Below are positions 1 to 7,992 of a stretch of DNA of 8,091 bases, one piece after another. Each line of letters starts with the position of its first letter. Positions within the stretch are counted from its first letter, which is position 1. Position numbers and translations under genes: made by a program. Under the pieces are notes generated by a model. That model was not told the DNA's origin and searched no databases. It saw only the letters and a program-made list of their open reading frames with translations. This DNA is from Candidatus Auribacterota bacterium (GTDB taxonomy: Bacteria; Auribacterota; JAFGBW01): NCBI GenBank assembly GCA_016932965.1, contig JAFGBW010000225.1:1-8091 (forward strand), written 5' to 3'.

Positions 1-345
1 CTGGTACGCCGTATCTGTCAAAACTGCAAGGCCGCTTATCCTGCTTCCGAATATGAAATGAAGCTGCTCAACTTAAAATCCGGAGAACACATGATCGCAA
101 AAGGTCAGGGATGTCCCAGCTGCAACCACACCGGCTACAAGGGGCGGTTTGGCATATTTGAACTGATGCTCATGGGACCTGACATTCAGGATCTGGTCTA
201 TGCCAGAAAAACGGCTTCAGATATCCGGATGACCGCCATCAAACTCGGCATGAGGACATTGCGTGAAGATGCCATCATTAAAGTCTTGAACGGATCCACC
301 AGTATTGATGAATTATTGAGAGTGACCAAAATAGGAGAAACATAA
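1..345 (+). CDS. PilB/GspE-type secretion/pilus extension ATPase, 3' end only
   Basis: This is the last 114 codons of a hexameric AAA-like ATPase of the PilB/GspE family; the reading frame is open from base 1 and the start lies outside the window. The visible part is the zinc-binding C-terminal region: C6 and C9, then C38 and C41 (numbered from base 1), followed by [11 protein letters not shown], the family's hallmark after the second Cys pair, and a helical tail. The Walker motifs are off-window. It aligns by eye end to end with the C-terminus of the ATPase at 1667-3352, so the two are paralogues. The stop is 2 bp from the pilT start, indicating one transcript. The cytoplasmic role would be driving pilin assembly at the inner membrane. 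Adjacency to pilT favours a PilB role over a type II secretion GspE role, but the fragment alone cannot decide this. Confidence 0.92.
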
Positions 346-347
346 AC

Positions 348-1427
348 ATGAGTCTTGAAATGAGTTCTTTATTGCAAATCGTTGTAGACGAAAACGCTTC
401 CGACCTCCATATCAACGTGGGAAAACCCCCCGTATTGCGCGTTGACGGAAGGCTGGAATCCTTGGATGTGGATATCTTAGAACCCGAGGACACGGAAAAT
501 TATGTCAAATCCATTACTTCCGAAGAAAATCTTCAGCGCATCCAGGAAGTGGGATCCACGGATTTTGGATTCGCTTTTGGCGACATTGCCCGTTTCCGCG
601 TGGCAGCCTTCAAACAAAAAGGGCATTACAGCATGGTGCTGCGCCTTATTCCCAACCGGCTGCTTACCCTGGAAGAAATCGGTTTGCCCGTATCGGTGAA
701 AGATCTTCTATTCCGTCCGCGCGGATTGATTTTAGTCACCGGTCCAACCGGAAGCGGAAAAACCACAACCCTGGCCAGCATGATCAATATCATCAATATA
801 GAACGTGAATCCCATATCGTCACGGTTGAAGATCCCATTGAATATTACCACACGCATAAAAAAGGACTGGTGACCCAGCGTGAAATCGGGGTTGATGTTC
901 CCTCATTTTCAGAAGCCATCAAAAGGGGGCTCCGGCAGGACCCGGATGTGATACTGGTTGGAGAAATGCGCGACCTTGAAACCATTGAAGCCGCCATCAC
1001 GGCAGCGGAGACCGGCCATCTCGTTTTTGGCACGCTTCATACGACCGGGGCCGCCAAAACCGTGGACAGAATCATCGACGCCTTCCCCCCTTCCCAGCAG
1101 GAACAGATCCGGGCACAGCTTTCCACCTCCATCTTGGCAGTGATCTCTCAGCTTCTCTTACCCAAATACAATCAGAAAGGCCGTATTGCGGTTTTTGAAA
1201 TCATGATCTCAACTCCCGCTATCCAGAATTTAATACGTGAAAATAAAACCTTCCGCCTCACTTCTGAAATCCAAACAGGGGCCAAATTCGGAATGAAAAT
1301 GCTGGACGCACATCTTTACGAACTTTATTCCCAGGGAATGATTTCCTATGCTGATCTGATCACCAAGGCCCAGGATCCGGAATCCATGGGATTAAAGCTG
1401 GCAACAGACATCAAAAAGAAAAAATAG
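348..1427 (+). CDS. pilT: Type IV pilus retraction ATPase PilT
   Basis: A 359-aa cytoplasmic ATPase that powers pilus depolymerisation and twitching-type retraction. An N-terminal PAS-like domain (about 1-110, including ASDLHI) precedes a RecA-like core. The core holds Walker A GPTGSGKT (132-139), the Asp box TVEDPIEY (159-166), Walker [10 protein letters not shown] (201-209) with its Glu, and the His box ending GTLHT (to 232). The PilT signature usually written AIRNLIRE reads AIQNLIRE (291-298), an Arg-to-Gln change. Length fits the family (roughly 345-370 aa), and the CxxC pairs of PilB are absent, as expected for PilT. AGGAG (333-337), inside the end of the upstream gene, is a plausible ribosome site, and the 2-bp gap suggests translational coupling. 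The C-terminus is lysine-rich. PilT identity is near certain; PilU is a less likely alternative. Confidence 0.97.
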
Positions 1428-1453
1428 GTTTGATCAACTATGGACGGAACCGT

Positions 1454-1480
1454 TTGTGATTGTTTTTTATTTTTTATAAC
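1454..1480 (+). promoter_or_regulatory. Weak candidate promoter upstream of the second pilB
   Basis: TTGTGA (1454-1459) and TATAAC (1475-1480) resemble sigma70 -35 and -10 boxes. The spacer is only 15 bp, shorter than the usual 16-18, and the surrounding T-runs make chance matches likely. The 239-bp gap after pilT is long for this cluster, so an internal promoter somewhere here is reasonable, but this particular site is tentative. Confidence 0.2.
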
Positions 1481-1529
1481 CTTTATATTGCCATTCATTG
1501 AAGAATTGAGAATTCAGTAGAAAGGAAAA

Positions 1530-1670
1530 ATGAATCAAAAACTTACCAATACAAGGAGAAATTCTTTTATTCCTTATTTTTTCTCGATTCAAATGTATGT
1601 AATGACAGTCAACCATACCCAAACCTCAACTGATTATTCAGGTGTTTCTTTTAAGGAACTATCATCATGA
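1530..1670 (+). CDS. Possible 46-aa small ORF coupled to downstream pilB
   Basis: The gap between pilT and the second ATPase holds an open frame of 46 codons. It starts at ATG 1530 and ends at TGA 1668-1670, which overlaps the downstream start as ATGA (1667-1670). AAAGGA (1521-1526) precedes the start, although the 3-nt spacing is shorter than usual. The product would have a basic N-terminal stretch (K4, R9, R10), a hydrophobic/aromatic segment (about 11-27) and a polar, Ser/Thr-rich tail. It could be a small membrane peptide, a leader peptide tuning translation of the ATPase, or a chance ORF in A+T-rich DNA. I recognise no family. The stop/start overlap is the main argument for it. Confidence 0.3.
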   Translation: MNQKLTNTRRNSFIPYFFSIQMYVMTVNHTQTSTDYSGVSFKELSS

Positions 1671-3352
1671 GCGAAGCAAGCGAACTTCTTATGGTGGATT
1701 TGTTGATCAAGAACAAATTGTTCACCCAGGAACAATTTGATGAGGTCATGCAATCCAGGCTTTCCCATGAAATTTCCATCCGCCGTTTGATCGTTGACCG
1801 GAAGCTCACAACAGAACGGGACATCCTTCAGGTCCTTCACAAAGAACAAGGATACCCATTAGCCAGCCTTTCCCATGTGAAAATTGACGAGTCTTTGCTC
1901 AAAAAAGTGACTTCCATTCAAGCCAATTCCTATTCGATTTTTCCCTTAAGGGAGGAAAAGGGGGAAATCGTCTTGGGAATGGTAGAGGTTCTGGACAATA
2001 ATCTTTTTGATGATCTGCGTTTTTCGCTGCCCTTTTCCTTTAAAGTGGAACTTTTGTCCATGGACGATCTCAAATCCCTTATTTCCCAATATTACAGTGA
2101 GACCTCCATCGAGGATATCTCCAGCATCATCAGTTCATCTATTGAGGAAGAAATCAAAGAAGTCGATGAACTGGACCCCAGAGTCAATGACGCCCCGGTT
2201 GTTAAAATGCTCAATTCCATCCTCGTGCAGGCCATCAATGATCATGCTTCCGATATCCATTTTGAACCGTTTGAAGAAGAATTCAAAATCCGCTACCGGA
2301 TTGACGGCACACTTTATGAAATGATCCCTCCGCCCAGACAACTGGCGGAATCTGTTTTATCTCGAATCAAAGTCATGGCCCGAATGAATATAGCTGAAAG
2401 AAGAGTTCCCCAGGACGGCCGTATTTCCCTGAATATGAAAAACCGGACTGTGGATCTCCGTGTTTCCACTCTTCCCACAGCCTTTGGAGAAAGCGCAGTC
2501 CTTCGCATCCTGGACCGATCTTATATCTCTTTAGATATCGAAAAACTGGGGTTTACCCGGCAAATGCTGAATAACATCAAGGAAATCATCCAGAAACCAA
2601 ACGGAATTTTCATCACCACGGGACCTACAGGAGCCGGAAAAACCACGACCTTGTATTCGTGTCTGAGGGAAATCAACAAGCTTGATACAAAAATCATCAC
2701 CACAGAGGACCCGGTTGAATATGACATCGAAGGCTTGATACAGGTTCCCATCAATGAGGCAATCGGATTGACTTTTGCTTCATGCCTTCGCGCCATGTTA
2801 CGTCAGGATCCCAATAAAATCATGGTGGGAGAAATTCGTGATCTCGAAACCATGAACATTGCCATTCAGGCTTCCCTGACCGGACATTTGGTTCTCTCCA
2901 CTCTGCACACCAATGATTCTTCCTCGGCCATCACCCGTCTGATAGACATGGGAGTCGAGCCTTTTCTTCTCTGTTCTTCGCTGGAAGCGGTTCTGGCTCA
3001 GAGGCTGGTCAGGAAACTATGCCCTGGTTGCAAAACTCCGTTCACGCCTACCGAAGCCATGTTGAAGCTCATCTCGCTGACGCCCAAGGACATCGGCAAT
3101 AAACCGTTTTACATCGGCAAGGGGTGTGATGAATGCGGCGGTATCGGATACAAGGGTCGTATTGGCATTTATGAACTCCTGATTATTGATAATGAAATTC
3201 GAAACTTGATCATGGAAAAGGCAACTGCTAAGATGATCAAAGATATTGCCAAAAAGAAGGGATTATTAACTCTTCTGGAAGACGGCATCCAAAAAGTAGA
3301 GTCTGGCATCACCACGGTTGAAGAAGTGGGTGCCTGTGCTATGGAAGGATAA
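1667..3352 (+). CDS. pilB: PilB/GspE-family pilus extension ATPase (second copy, complete)
   Basis: A 561-aa cytoplasmic hexameric ATPase expected to drive pilin polymerisation through PilC. The N-terminal helical part (about 5-140) looks like a T2SSE_N/MshEN-type domain, followed by an acidic linker (about 146-170) and the PAS-like N2 domain with DHASDIHFEP (192-201). The motor core carries Walker A GPTGAGKT (319-326), Asp box TEDPVEY (346-352), Walker B KIMVGEIRD (384-392) and His box GHLVLSTLHT (406-415). Zinc-site cysteines are C452/C455 and C487/C490, then GYKGRIGIYEL. Length is typical of PilB/GspE. The start is well placed: AAGGA (1653-1657) lies 9 nt upstream, and an in-frame stop at 1652 allows no longer version. 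It sits 3 bp before pilC, so it probably forms the motor/platform pair with it. A type II secretion GspE role is possible, but pilT nearby favours T4P. Confidence 0.93.
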   Translation: MSEASELLMVDLLIKNKLFTQEQFDEVMQSRLSHEISIRRLIVDRKLTTERDILQVLHKEQGYPLASLSHVKIDESLLKKVTSIQANSYSIFPLREEKGEIVLGMVEVLDNNLFDDLRFSLPFSFKVELLSMDDLKSLISQYYSETSIEDISSIISSSIEEEIKEVDELDPRVNDAPVVKMLNSILVQAINDHASDIHFEPFEEEFKIRYRIDGTLYEMIPPPRQLAESVLSRIKVMARMNIAERRVPQDGRISLNMKNRTVDLRVSTLPTAFGESAVLRILDRSYISLDIEKLGFTRQMLNNIKEIIQKPNGIFITTGPTGAGKTTTLYSCLREINKLDTKIITTEDPVEYDIEGLIQVPINEAIGLTFASCLRAMLRQDPNKIMVGEIRDLETMNIAIQASLTGHLVLSTLHTNDSSSAITRLIDMGVEPFLLCSSLEAVLAQRLVRKLCPGCKTPFTPTEAMLKLISLTPKDIGNKPFYIGKGCDECGGIGYKGRIGIYELLIIDNEIRNLIMEKATAKMIKDIAKKKGLLTLLEDGIQKVESGITTVEEVGACAMEG

Positions 3353-3355
3353 AAA

Positions 3356-4597
3356 ATGGAATACCTGTATGAAGGAATAGACAATAAAGGCAAGGAAATC
3401 TCGGGCAGCATTATCGCTGAATCCAAAGTCAGCGCTATCAACAAAATCCGTGAGATGGGGTATTTTCCGACTTCCGTAACCGAAAAAAAAGAACAGGACA
3501 AAAGTTCTTCTCAAAAAGGGATTAAAAGTTTTTCTCTTAAGGATTTTTTAACCAAGAAAAGCGTTAAGGAAAAAGAACTGGTGACCTTCATGAGGCAGTT
3601 TGCGACCTTGGTTGATGCAGGTCTTCCGATTTTACGAGGAATCCGGGTACTTGAAAAACAAAATCAGGGCAAGGGACTGCAAAGTGTCCTGAAGGATGTG
3701 GGAGATTCTGTTGAAAGCGGTAATTCCCTTTCCGCTTCGCTGATGACTTTTCAGAATATCTTTTCCCCTTTATTTGTGAATATGGTGCATGCAGGTGAAG
3801 TCGGCGGAGTTCTGGACAAGGTGTTGCTTCAAATGGCAGATTATTTCGAAAAAACCGCCAAATTGAAAAAGAAAATCAAAGCCGCTATGGTTTATCCCGT
3901 TACGGTCCTGGTCATTGCTATGACCGTAGTTTACGGCCTGGTGAGTTTCATCATTCCTAAATTTGCAAAAATGTTTCAGGAAATGGAATTGCAGCTTCCG
4001 GCTATGACTAAAATGCTGATTGAAACAAGCCGTATCTGCAAGGAACAATGGTATATACCAATTATCCTGTTAATTTTTATTGTGATAGGTTTCAGAATCA
4101 TCCTGTCCAACCGTAAAGGGCGGCATGTGATTCATCAAATTTTATTCCGGATGCCGTTATTGGGTGTGCTGATTCAAAAAGTGGCGATTGCCCGTTACGC
4201 CAGGACATTTGGAACACTCATCAACAGCGGCGTTCAAATTTTGGAATCGTTGATGATAACAAAAAATACCATCGGCAATTCGGTGGTTGAATCAGCCATT
4301 GATCTGGTGCATGATAATTTGAAAGAAGGGGAGTCCATGGTTCAGCCGCTCGTTCAAGCCGGGATTTTTCCTCCCATGGTGGTAAGCATGGTCAGCGTGG
4401 GAGAAGAAACCGGAAGAATGTCTGAAATGCTGCTGAAAATTGCCGAAAGTTATGAAGATGACGTGGATGCGGCTGTCGCCGGCCTCACCTCTTTGATCGA
4501 ACCCCTGCTGATCATTGGCCTTGCCATGATCGTGGCTTTCATCGTGATCGCCATGTTCCTGCCGCTCATCTCGCTGATTTCCTCCATGACGCAATAG
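3356..4597 (+). CDS. pilC: Type IV pilus inner-membrane platform protein PilC (GspF family)
   Basis: A 413-aa polytopic inner-membrane protein onto which PilB and PilT dock to insert or remove pilin subunits. The N-terminus (about 1-45, starting MEYLYEGID and including KIREMGYFPTSV) is the typical GspF/PilC cytoplasmic opening. Two T2SSF repeats follow: the first around 77-200 with FMRQFATLVDAGLPI, the second around 280-402 with ARTFGTLINSGVQI. Each contains a GEVGG or GEETG turn (147-151, 349-353). Hydrophobic segments at about 177-200, 232-250 and 381-408 give the usual three-helix topology. Length is normal for the family. GGAAGG, overlapping the end of the upstream ATPase gene, serves as ribosome site; the genes are 3 bp apart and surely co-transcribed. 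PilC and GspF are not separable by sequence alone, but the gene neighbours indicate PilC. Confidence 0.95.
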   Translation: MEYLYEGIDNKGKEISGSIIAESKVSAINKIREMGYFPTSVTEKKEQDKSSSQKGIKSFSLKDFLTKKSVKEKELVTFMRQFATLVDAGLPILRGIRVLEKQNQGKGLQSVLKDVGDSVESGNSLSASLMTFQNIFSPLFVNMVHAGEVGGVLDKVLLQMADYFEKTAKLKKKIKAAMVYPVTVLVIAMTVVYGLVSFIIPKFAKMFQEMELQLPAMTKMLIETSRICKEQWYIPIILLIFIVIGFRIILSNRKGRHVIHQILFRMPLLGVLIQKVAIARYARTFGTLINSGVQILESLMITKNTIGNSVVESAIDLVHDNLKEGESMVQPLVQAGIFPPMVVSMVSVGEETGRMSEMLLKIAESYEDDVDAAVAGLTSLIEPLLIIGLAMIVAFIVIAMFLPLISLISSMTQ

Positions 4598-4654: not shown

Positions 4655-5248
4655 ATGGCTTCCAAATACAACTGCATATTATTGTTTGGCGCTCCAGGTT
4701 CTGGAAAAGGACTGCAGGGCAAAATATTGAATTCCATTCCTGGACTTTTTCATTGCTCCATGGGGGACGTCTTCAGGAGCCTGGATAAAAATTCGGAATT
4801 GGGAAAAGCTTTTGTTCAGTATTCCTCAGTTGGAAAACTGGTTCCGGATGAGCTGACCCTGAAAATCTGGGCCGATTTCATGGAAAAACAGGTCAACGCA
4901 GGACGTTTTAACCCTGCTGAAGACATGGTCGTGTTTGACGGCTTCCCCAGAACTGTGGATCAGGCTGTAACAATGCAAGAACAAGTACGGATTTTAAAAA
5001 TCCTTCATTTGAACTGTGCTGACCAAAACATATTAATCAAACGGATTCAGGGACGCGCTCTCATTGAAAAACGGACTGATGATGCCAAAACCGACGTGAT
5101 CCGGAACAGGATGGAGGTATATGAAAGGGAAACTTCCCCTGTCTTGAAGCAATTCCTCTCAAACCAAGTGGTGACTATCGACGCTTCTTTGACTCCGATG
5201 GAAGTCTTGAGCTGCATCCTTCAGGTTCTGGTTTCTTTAAAAAAATAA
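4655..5248 (+). CDS. Short-form (LID-less) adenylate kinase family protein, divergent
   Basis: A 197-aa cytoplasmic P-loop nucleoside monophosphate kinase of the adenylate kinase / UMP-CMP kinase group (ATP + NMP = ADP + NDP). P-loop GAPGSGKG spans 12-19, the NMP-binding region is SMGDVFR (35-41), GKLVPDEL (60-67) is conserved, and FDGFPRT (94-100) is followed by the usual Gln (Q103). The core arginines are present: R99, R134, R140 before TDD (141-143), R150 and R152. The segment between R134 and R140 is very short, so the LID insertion of long adenylate kinases is absent. Two positions are unusual: the family GKGT is GKGL (L20), and STGD is SMGD (M36), both near substrate phosphates or base. 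AAAGGA (4644-4649) gives a good ribosome site. It lies 57 bp after pilC, so it is probably in the operon, which is unusual for a housekeeping adk. It may be a specialised paralogue. Confidence 0.85.
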   Translation: MASKYNCILLFGAPGSGKGLQGKILNSIPGLFHCSMGDVFRSLDKNSELGKAFVQYSSVGKLVPDELTLKIWADFMEKQVNAGRFNPAEDMVVFDGFPRTVDQAVTMQEQVRILKILHLNCADQNILIKRIQGRALIEKRTDDAKTDVIRNRMEVYERETSPVLKQFLSNQVVTIDASLTPMEVLSCILQVLVSLKK

Positions 5249-5359: not shown

Positions 5360-6118
5360 ATGAATAATAGCGAAGGCCTTGAAAAAAGAGAATACATCCG
5401 TTTTCCCTTCAATTATCCCATTCAATTCCGCCTGAAAAACACAGAGGAATGGTTCTATTCCAGTACAGACAACATCTCTCTCACCGGAATCATGTTCGCT
5501 TCTGATGTCAATTATCAAAAAAACGATGATCTGGAGCTGGAGCTGAGCCATCCCTCAATCGAATCCCCTCCTTCACCGCTTATCGCCTCGGTTTCCTGGT
5601 GTGTAACCGAAGTCCCCTATATCTCTAAAATTTATGTGGTGGGCTGCACATTTAAATCCCTTGAAGAAAATCAAAAGGAATACATCAAGAACATCATTCA
5701 TCAATGTGTTTTAATGAAACAGCACAGAACCTATAAAATTCTGTTCATCGATGATAATAAAAGCCTGACCAAGCTTTTTAAATGCCTTGGTGAAGAATAC
5801 CGTTTCGAAGCCTATACGGCTGATAATATCACCGAAGGAAAAGCAGCAGCCGTGAAAATCGCCCCGGATGTCATCATCACAGATATTCACCTGCCAGACG
5901 GCGACGGCTTTAAACTGGCAGCCGTATTGAAAACCCATGAAAGGACTAGAAATATCCCCATCATCGCCGCCAGCGTGACATACACAGATATAGGGGAAAG
6001 ATTTTTCCTTTTCGGGGGAAGTAAATTCATCAACGATAAACCCACCACCATTGAAAAATTAAACCGGATCCTGGAAGGCGTTCTGCCTAAATTGTCCCCA
6101 TCTCCAGAAAAAAATTAG
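5360..6118 (+). CDS. PilZ domain - receiver (REC) domain fusion protein
   Basis: A 252-aa soluble signalling protein. The N-terminal PilZ domain (about 8-115) keeps both c-di-GMP motifs: RxxxR as R10-x3-R14 and the D/NxSxxG motif as NISLTG (38-43). The C-terminal receiver domain (about 125-245) keeps the acidic pair D131/D132, phospho-acceptor D175 in ITDIHLPDGDG, the switch Ser/Thr S205 and the K227-P228 pair, so it looks phosphorylatable. There is no DNA-binding or enzymatic output domain. Start: no other usual start codon lies upstream before an in-frame TAA at 5339, and the next Met (M45) would remove both PilZ motifs, so 5360 is firm despite lacking a ribosome site. It likely senses c-di-GMP and a histidine-kinase signal; control of the adjacent pilus motor is an inference from position. 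The 3' end overlaps the convergent gene by 4 bp. Confidence 0.9.
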   Translation: MNNSEGLEKREYIRFPFNYPIQFRLKNTEEWFYSSTDNISLTGIMFASDVNYQKNDDLELELSHPSIESPPSPLIASVSWCVTEVPYISKIYVVGCTFKSLEENQKEYIKNIIHQCVLMKQHRTYKILFIDDNKSLTKLFKCLGEEYRFEAYTADNITEGKAAAVKIAPDVIITDIHLPDGDGFKLAAVLKTHERTRNIPIIAASVTYTDIGERFFLFGGSKFINDKPTTIEKLNRILEGVLPKLSPSPEKN

Positions 6119-7992
6119 TCTGGCTCCATTTTGAACTCATCCGTCCCGTTTTGTTCCTGCTGTTTTATCCTGTCAATGATTTCCCAGACTCTAGGATTAG
6201 ACGGCTCGTGTTTTAATATCTCTTCCAATATGTTCAGACAGCCGGACAAATCATTTTCTTCCAGCAGCAAACGAATCTGAAAAAACTTGGTTTCCTTGAA
6301 AAAAGAAAATAGGGAAAAATCATCCATCAGCATCCTGGGCCTGGCCCACTGACTGAACCCGTATCTCTTTTTATCCTGACATTCCCGGCATATTTCCATG
6401 CTTCCGGCTTTCCCAGCTGCTTCCCTCCAATCTTCTTTAGAAACCAAAATACCTTCATTTATTCTGGAACAAAGAGAGAATTTTCCGTCGGGGAACATGA
6501 CCATTTCAAAGGGGACCTTGGTGCACTCTGAATCAAATTTTTTAGAATGGAAAGAGGTCCCCGCGGCATCATCTCCGGTGACCACAATGCCATCCACGCG
6601 GTACTGCCATTTTTGCAGCAGTTGGGGGATAAAATCAATCTCACGGGAAAAATTATTCTGGATCTTCAGCATAAAAAAACGGTCAGGGAAACGATCCCTT
6701 ACGGTCAAAAAGGAAGCGATCCTGTCATCTAAATGTTCAGTCATATTTTTTAAAGAAGAATCCAAACAAAACTCATTCAGGCAATAAACCCAAATATCTG
6801 TTCCGGCGGCATAATATTCTTCCAGTTTTTGCGGTGTCAAATCCAGTGAGGGGGATTCCACATAAATTCGTCCTGAAGAAGATTGCCGTATGATTTTTAG
6901 AAGGTTCTCTAGAGTTTTCCCTTGGAATCCGTCCTTTTCTCCGGAAAGAACCCAAAAAGATGTTTCATTCCACATGCTAACGGCCGACTTAAATGTTTGG
7001 TTATTGAATGCCTTTTCTTTTTCATTCAATTTCACCCGGATGATCCGCGGCTTTTCAAAAATTTCAGAATGAACTGCCTGTTTAAACCCTTCAAAATGAT
7101 GATGAGAAACCGAAAAGGAAGATACATTGATGACGGATTGGACAGACCGGTTCCGCAATGATAAGGGGATGACTTCTTCCTGAATCTGAAATGAAATTTT
7201 TTCCAGTTGAGAACAAAAGGAACCGGAAGGAGAAATCAGATTGAGCGTCCGGTTAGCTTCATTTTCCATCATGGAATCCAGCCGGATATTCCGCTCGTCA
7301 CTGATGAATTTTGAAGCATCAAAAGCCGAGCTTCGTCTTGTCCAGAATTGATAATTTTCTTTCATACGAAGGTATTTTCTTTTGACAGCATTTCTAAGAC
7401 GGCTCATTTGCAGCCGGCTTCGATCATAATTCATTCCTAAAAGCAGGTCCTCAGAATTTTCCCCTCTAAAAATAAAATCAAAACCGGAGACGGCCTGAAG
7501 GAGGGTATGATAATGCTCTTTATTCAAATACCAGAAGGATTCCATGTTTTGAATCAGCATCCTTTTGGCATTCGTCTTTTCAGAAAACTCCTCCCAGCCT
7601 TGCACTGACCACAAACCAAACAAATCCTGTGTCTCCATAAAAAGGGGGTGGAATACCGAATGAGATGACACCAGAGAATAAGGAAGCGAGTCCGGGATGC
7701 CTTCTATCCTGACGGGATTCATTTTTTTCTTTTCCTGACCTGAAAATTTCGAATAAAAATCTTGTAACCGGTCATGAAAAAAAGACGATTCGTTTTCCGG
7801 AACAATGAGCACAATGAGATCAAAACCTTGTGCATAAACATAGGAAAACAGGGCCTGTTCAAAAAAGGAATGTTCACCGTATTTTTGGAATAAGTCCCCG
7901 TCCTTTCTCGGCCGCCCTAAACCTCGCGTGGCTGCATGACTGAATAACACATTCATGTTCAATGATGATCCATTCATTTTTTCAATCTTCAT
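6115..7992 (-). CDS. SPASM-domain protein with degenerate radical-SAM fold (spiro-SPASM-like)
   Basis: A 625-aa soluble protein. Residues about 13-170 open with a beta strand and a Gly/Arg/Lys-rich loop (GLGRPRK, 24-30) that faintly recalls nucleotidyltransferases; this is not secure. Residues about 315-480 read like a radical-SAM barrel: SGEKDGF (350-356) sits where GGEP is expected, followed by an ESPSLDLTP stretch (379-387) and AAGTDIWVYCL (395-405). The CxxxCxxC triad that binds the catalytic cluster is absent. SPASM-like cysteines follow: C490-x12-G-x4-C508, then C535-x2-C538, with the remaining SPASM cysteines missing. A TPR-like helical pair (about 570-612) ends the protein. From memory it matches the spirochaete 'spiro-SPASM' family, whose function I do not know. 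The start is uncertain: M1, M6 (7975-7977) or M13 (7954-7956), none with a clear ribosome site. Confidence 0.75.
   Translation of the reverse strand: MKIEKMNGSSLNMNVLFSHAATRGLGRPRKDGDLFQKYGEHSFFEQALFSYVYAQGFDLIVLIVPENESSFFHDRLQDFYSKFSGQEKKKMNPVRIEGIPDSLPYSLVSSHSVFHPLFMETQDLFGLWSVQGWEEFSEKTNAKRMLIQNMESFWYLNKEHYHTLLQAVSGFDFIFRGENSEDLLLGMNYDRSRLQMSRLRNAVKRKYLRMKENYQFWTRRSSAFDASKFISDERNIRLDSMMENEANRTLNLISPSGSFCSQLEKISFQIQEEVIPLSLRNRSVQSVINVSSFSVSHHHFEGFKQAVHSEIFEKPRIIRVKLNEKEKAFNNQTFKSAVSMWNETSFWVLSGEKDGFQGKTLENLLKIIRQSSSGRIYVESPSLDLTPQKLEEYYAAGTDIWVYCLNEFCLDSSLKNMTEHLDDRIASFLTVRDRFPDRFFMLKIQNNFSREIDFIPQLLQKWQYRVDGIVVTGDDAAGTSFHSKKFDSECTKVPFEMVMFPDGKFSLCSRINEGILVSKEDWREAAGKAGSMEICRECQDKKRYGFSQWARPRMLMDDFSLFSFFKETKFFQIRLLLEENDLSGCLNILEEILKHEPSNPRVWEIIDRIKQQEQNGTDEFKMEPD

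Follow-up and report, generated by a model that had tools for sequence, protein, structure and literature searches.

The open reading frame P0001 raises a simple question: is a protein that keeps the order of radical-SAM motifs and has no CxxxCxxC a decayed enzyme, or has it been maintained for something other than radical chemistry? The window analysed here, 8,091 nucleotides, is the entire contig C8 of a 3.1-Mb Candidatus Auribacterota assembly (G000) that is 92.6% complete. The reading frame proposed for P0001 in the initial annotation was confirmed: it runs for 625 amino acids without interruption (Table 1). It has the top codon score among the six frames, which supports coding, although its codon signal (0.093) is weaker than that of the neighbouring genes (about 0.2). 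In a simulation of neutral decay, 1 of 200 copies kept an intact frame at 5% substitution; the 625 codons of P0001 are intact. An assembly or frameshift artefact was ruled out as the cause of the missing triad, since the frame is unbroken, the deletion at the triad site is in frame, and the pattern recurs in other genomes, several of which have megabase contigs. P0001 gave zero matches to NCBIfam up to an E-value of 10, and its Pfam matches to a DnaG helicase-binding domain and a C2H2 zinc finger, all below threshold, were regarded as chance.

Table 1. Coordinates of P0001, its parts and neighbours in the window, and of the second family member of the genome
Feature	Position	Strand	Residues and basis
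Type IV pilus genes	1-4597	one direction	end of PilB-type ATPase, PilT, second PilB-type ATPase, GspF/PilC
Adenylate kinase-like protein	4655-5248		PF00406; downstream of pilus genes
PilZ domain fused to response-regulator receiver domain	5360-6118	opposite to P0001	end overlaps P0001 end by 4 bases
P0001 open reading frame	6115-7992	(-)	625 aa, triad-less radical-SAM-like/twitch protein, no internal stops
C-terminal helical TPR-like tail	6148-6321	(-)	~558-615; TPR_14 E 0.074 (under cut-off); relatives TPR_11 7.7e-7
Twitch domain	6379-6525	(-)	C490-x12-G503-x4-C508, W522, C535-x2-C538; predicted to hold one auxiliary Fe-S cluster
Radical-SAM-like partial (beta/alpha)6 barrel	6574-7056	(-)	~313-473; predicted secondary structure, Foldseek matches
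SGEKDG	6928-6945	(-)	350-355; position of SGYGEP in relatives
Deleted triad site	7015-7038	(-)	~319-326, RVKLNEKE; ~16 residues with the relatives' CxxxCxxC gone in frame (alignments)
N-terminal cytidylyltransferase-like domain	7417-7953	(-)	~14-192; TarI match, alignment to relatives
Second triad-less member, same genome	L092: 7505-9430	(+)	between flavin reductase and dxr gene

A contig scan with P0001 alone as query found no relative; across 59 genomes a single relative came up, of the same order (E 3e-8). This protein of 634 residues has CDLACRSC, SGFGEP, ETNG and LNLD. Four further relatives (632-634 residues) are found in Candidatus Auribacterota, together with a sixth (G015) whose C-terminal region is longer; all six (L062-L066 and G015) carry the CxxxCxxC triad. 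In the G015 member (L098, 493-3687, minus strand) an extension of ~300 residues, which by eye looks repetitive and beta-propeller-like, takes the place of the TPR-like tail. Identity between P0001 and its relatives is 15%. A profile alignment (hhalign) of P0001 to the five shorter relatives extends over 562 columns (E 2.9e-9), and an HMM of the six Auribacterota members alone finds P0001 at 5.2e-13 on a 5000-sequence scale (best of 300 shuffles, 2.4). The relationship is thus real and spans the whole of P0001, including its N-domain. Judged by these alignments, P0001 is a far-diverged member of an Auribacterota family that combines a cytidylyltransferase-like N-domain, a radical-SAM barrel, a twitch domain and a TPR-like tail.

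This corrects the earlier description of the N-terminal domain as unrelated, given that alignment, profile and structure comparisons all place a cytidylyltransferase-like domain common to the relatives there. Matched alone, the N-domain of P0001 is weak (domain E 0.056); the TarI cytidylyltransferase aligns to residues 13-192 at Z 10.7, on a mid-confidence model. The tail shares E590, L593 and P597 with the relatives. In the AlphaFold2 model of P0001 (pLDDT 52), strands and helices alternate over residues 317-473, the barrel; the model was built with triad-bearing relatives in the alignment and leans on them, and therefore counts as supporting evidence only. Foldseek matched its barrel to HydE, HemN, ThiH and LIAS and its N-domain to cytidylyltransferases, and a second structure aligner matched the barrel to viperin at Z 12.4; radical-SAM structures come first among the matches, with unrelated TIM barrels nearly tying (up to Z 11) at this pLDDT. 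The model of a triad-bearing relative (pLDDT 71) matches the Leptospira cytidylyltransferase 6oew at 2.7e-7 and also DesII, BlsE, MoaA, BtrN and SpeY.

The order of radical-SAM motifs without CxxxCxxC, the central claim of the initial annotation, is borne out by alignment to the triad-bearing relatives and by a motif scan of the whole protein, which found no CxxxCxxC anywhere. SGEKDG, ESPS (379-382) and AGTDIWVYCLN align to the places of the relatives' GYGEP, ETNG and LDILILNLD, and the gap at the triad falls between RVKLNE and KEKAF. Compared with the relatives, GYGEP has been replaced by GEKDG and ETNG by ESPS, with the GEP and NG motifs lost. In the HMM search proposed as a check, P0001 has no match to PF04055 up to an E-value of 1 (Pfam search) or to TIGR04321 up to 10, whereas the triad-bearing relatives match both, PF04055 at 49-59 bits. 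By its sequence, P0001 cannot perform radical-SAM chemistry, and to this extent its initial reading as a non-catalytic relative of these enzymes is supported.

The auxiliary site has fared differently. The five relatives of ~630 residues share exactly seven invariant cysteines, three in the triad and four in the twitch domain; both copies in G000 (P0001 and a second one on contig C82) have lost the three and retained the four, which are kept in all eight Auribacterota family members. The SPASM motif starts CX9-15GX4C-gap-CX2C, its first four cysteines being the twitch set (PMC6231123), and a twitch domain accommodates a single auxiliary cluster (PMC6231123; PMC9012708). C490, C508, C535 and C538 of P0001 follow this spacing. 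The C-x12-G-x4-C and C-x2-C noticed at the outset are indeed present and align to invariant cysteines of the relatives, but to call them part of a SPASM domain was mistaken: the four make up a complete twitch set, and P0001 has these first four alone in place of the seven-cysteine, two-cluster SPASM motif, as do the triad-bearing relatives. Shuffling the protein 20,000 times gave such a cysteine pattern twice. P0001 retains 28 of the 98 columns that do not vary among the five relatives (8 of 17 within the twitch region), and with this overall retention the chance of all four twitch cysteines surviving is 0.006. As for the suggestion that the protein carries a cluster, the ligands of the auxiliary site are in place, and the cluster itself is predicted from them.

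The four cysteines might instead bind zinc or serve the fold structurally, with no Fe-S cluster once the SAM cluster is gone. CX2C pairs occur in zinc sites too, and no residue of P0001 tells zinc from Fe-S. However, twitch/SPASM auxiliary sites have this very spacing (PMC6231123), and triad-bearing members have the identical site; we consider a zinc or purely structural site unlikely.

Loss of the triad is not peculiar to P0001. In the C82 copy, of 641 residues, the three triad cysteines have all been substituted, not deleted, and the four twitch cysteines are there as in P0001. Its N-domain has changed less than that of P0001 and still has the family's AD..PL motif (WADMIPLM), which P0001 has lost (NMESFWYL). 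The eight-row family tree has no supported branch, and the P0001 and C82 copies are both long, so that it singles out neither as the true orthologue.

Beyond this phylum, TIGR04321 (spiroSPASM) is the named family that best fits the triad-bearing Auribacterota relative tested, at 88 bits and under the 250-bit cut-off; matches of the triad-bearing Auribacterota members to it range from 1e-24 to 1e-32. P0001 reaches only 1.8 bits against a spirochaete-only HMM, and is thus linked to TIGR04321 through the Auribacterota members. The cut-off is exceeded in 201 of 247 spirochaete genomes, nearly always by a single copy; the term "spiro-SPASM" does not occur in the literature searched. Since one Treponema member is triad-less despite scoring 494 bits against TIGR04321, we sampled the family. 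The 70 members taken comprise this Treponema protein, the 30 loci with the highest scores and 39 hand-picked along the match list, so that the proportion of triad-less members is indicative only. Read from the alignment columns, the triad is CCC in 25 of the 70 and not in the other 45, among which there are 28 different letter combinations, whereas all four auxiliary cysteines are present in 69. Apart from the three triad cysteines and one histidine, no column is conserved in at least 85% of triad-bearing and at most 60% of triad-less members; E357, P358, E382, T383 and Q441 are conserved in both alike. Across the family, then, little besides the cluster ligands was lost.

To count the losses, the triad state was mapped onto a tree from which the triad region had been left out. 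Parsimony yields 12 changes of triad state, 8 of them forced by well-supported branches; over both phyla, with the two G000 copies counted, there are 15 losses if the triad was never regained and 13 with weak forks collapsed. In triad-less spirochaete groups dN/dS is 0.05-0.25 (30 pairs, five groups), indicating purifying selection and thus that these proteins are maintained. In five spirochaete members (L127, L128, L129, L131 and L132) the triad columns read YSK and dN/dS is about 0.1, which makes them a suitable set for work on a maintained triad-less protein.

Triad-less members could in principle still hold a SAM cluster through shifted cysteines: 7 of 47 have three cysteines in the 90 residues around the site, and the E and P of GEP are mostly kept in spirochaetes. 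A compact C-x2-4-C-x1-3-C, however, occurs in that stretch in 0 of the 47, and 40 have fewer than three cysteines there; P0001 has lost the loop itself. We regard this arrangement as exceedingly improbable.

Homologues that carry the triad were, in the initial annotation, the finding that would reduce P0001 to a merely decayed enzyme. Six such relatives exist in Auribacterota, but the conclusion does not follow from them: loss of the triad with the auxiliary site kept recurs in the C82 copy and in 45 of 70 spirochaete members, under purifying selection in the triad-less groups, which argues against simple decay. For P0001 in particular, the most diverged member and one with further motifs lost, decay keeps a small probability. 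A copy heading to pseudogene, in which the four cysteines survive by chance, would fit its very long branch (at 3.19 changes per column, longer than any other in the tree), its low identity to the relatives, the loss of both catalytic sites and its weaker codon signal. It fits poorly with an intact frame, with the low chance of keeping all four cysteines, and with the repetition of the pattern in the C82 copy and in triad-less relatives under selection, and we consider it improbable. That P0001 is instead non-radical and maintained, with its auxiliary site kept, seems to us very likely.

Another reading makes P0001 a pseudo-subunit, which would partner and regulate an active radical-SAM enzyme encoded at another locus and use its auxiliary cluster for electron transfer or partner contact. 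The G000 genome has 52 radical-SAM matches, and in a radical-SAM/SPASM enzyme an auxiliary cluster has been observed accepting an electron (PMC9012708). However, the G000 assembly, 92.6% complete, yielded no full-length member of the family with the triad. Moreover, nearly every spirochaete genome has a single member, with or without the triad, which leaves no partner within the family, and none of the conserved neighbours is a radical-SAM enzyme. Such a pairing is in our judgement rather unlikely.

The conserved neighbours point to a different context for the family. A cytidylyltransferase/methyltransferase gene lies at most four genes away in 17 of 20 spirochaete loci (6/6 triad-bearing, 11/14 triad-less), where a ~320-residue protein without Pfam match and an ATP-grasp protein are often added, and the triad-bearing Auribacterota members adjoin gmd (GDP-mannose dehydratase), glycosyltransferases or a DegT aminotransferase. 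These glycan-type neighbours in both phyla suggest that the pathway is probably surface-glycan or nucleotide-sugar synthesis. At L195-L213 there is a conserved spirochaete operon of spiroSPASM, a ~320-residue protein without Pfam match, a CTP_transf_3 cytidylyltransferase (either split from or fused to the methyltransferase), an ATP-grasp protein and an N-acetylmuramoyl-alanine amidase. A tie between the spirochaete operon and the flagellin glycan of T. denticola is a guess. The neighbours of P0001 itself are type IV pilus genes, not glycan genes, and no real synteny of its gene with the relatives was found. A pilus neighbourhood common with G001 and G002 was ruled out as evidence of orthology, as their pilB genes match contig C239 best and not the window.

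Taken as a whole, the explanation we favour, with moderate confidence, is that P0001 is a functional non-radical descendant in which the cluster of the auxiliary site is an essential part, with a role in a surface-glycan pathway. It comes from a cytidylyltransferase-like/radical-SAM/twitch family and has lost the SAM-cluster loop by in-frame deletion, as well as the GEP and NG motifs. The four twitch cysteines were kept and would hold an auxiliary Fe-S cluster or another metal; this site, with the surrounding barrel and twitch, would be the essential part, and radical-SAM chemistry an optional extra that many lineages abandoned. The essential part would most plausibly bind a nucleotide-sugar or glycan intermediate or hold the multi-domain scaffold together, although as the molecular role of P0001 in a surface-glycan pathway this is tentative. 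Since the triad was lost about a dozen times with the four cysteines kept, it seems to be the auxiliary site that counts, rather than radical chemistry. Whether the auxiliary Fe-S cluster is the essential centre of the whole family in place of the SAM cluster, with radical-SAM chemistry dropped about a dozen times while the operon place and the other conserved residues were kept, we judge to be evenly balanced.

Direct evidence for a catalytic function of auxiliary clusters in radical-SAM enzymes was long elusive (PMC9012708), and their role is still being worked out. A family with repeated loss of the SAM cluster and a near-invariant auxiliary site is a natural experiment: the auxiliary site could be studied alone, and triad-bearing and triad-less proteins from the same operon position are matched pairs. 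If our reading is right, the family is a natural collection of non-radical proteins on the radical-SAM/twitch fold. It also calls for caution, in that annotation as "radical SAM/SPASM" from fold or family makes radical enzymes look more numerous than they are.

Pseudo-radical-SAM proteins are an already named kind. TIGR04150 (pseudo_rSAM_GG) and TIGR04347 (pseudo-SAM/SPASM, pseudo_SAM_Halo) in NCBIfam are likewise radical-SAM-like proteins called "pseudo"; P0001 matches neither, and the names of both imply no cytidylyltransferase-like domain. The sugar and aminocyclitol radical-SAM enzymes BtrN, SpeY, DesII and BlsE are among the closest solved structures to the barrel or twitch of the triad-bearing relative; all four are catalytic with the triad and, unlike the P0001 family, have no cytidylyltransferase-like domain. 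The six Auribacterota relatives have the domain order and the four twitch cysteines of P0001 (the five shorter ones also its length), but differ in having CxxxCxxC, the GEP motif, ETNG and, mostly, the AD motif of the N-domain. P0001 differs from TIGR04321 in its lack of a match to the model, its C-terminal TPR-like tail, the deletion of the loop instead of substitutions, and the loss of GEP. The two nevertheless share an N-terminal nucleotidyltransferase-like region, a radical-SAM-like barrel and the four auxiliary cysteines, and in TIGR04321, too, most sampled members have lost the triad.
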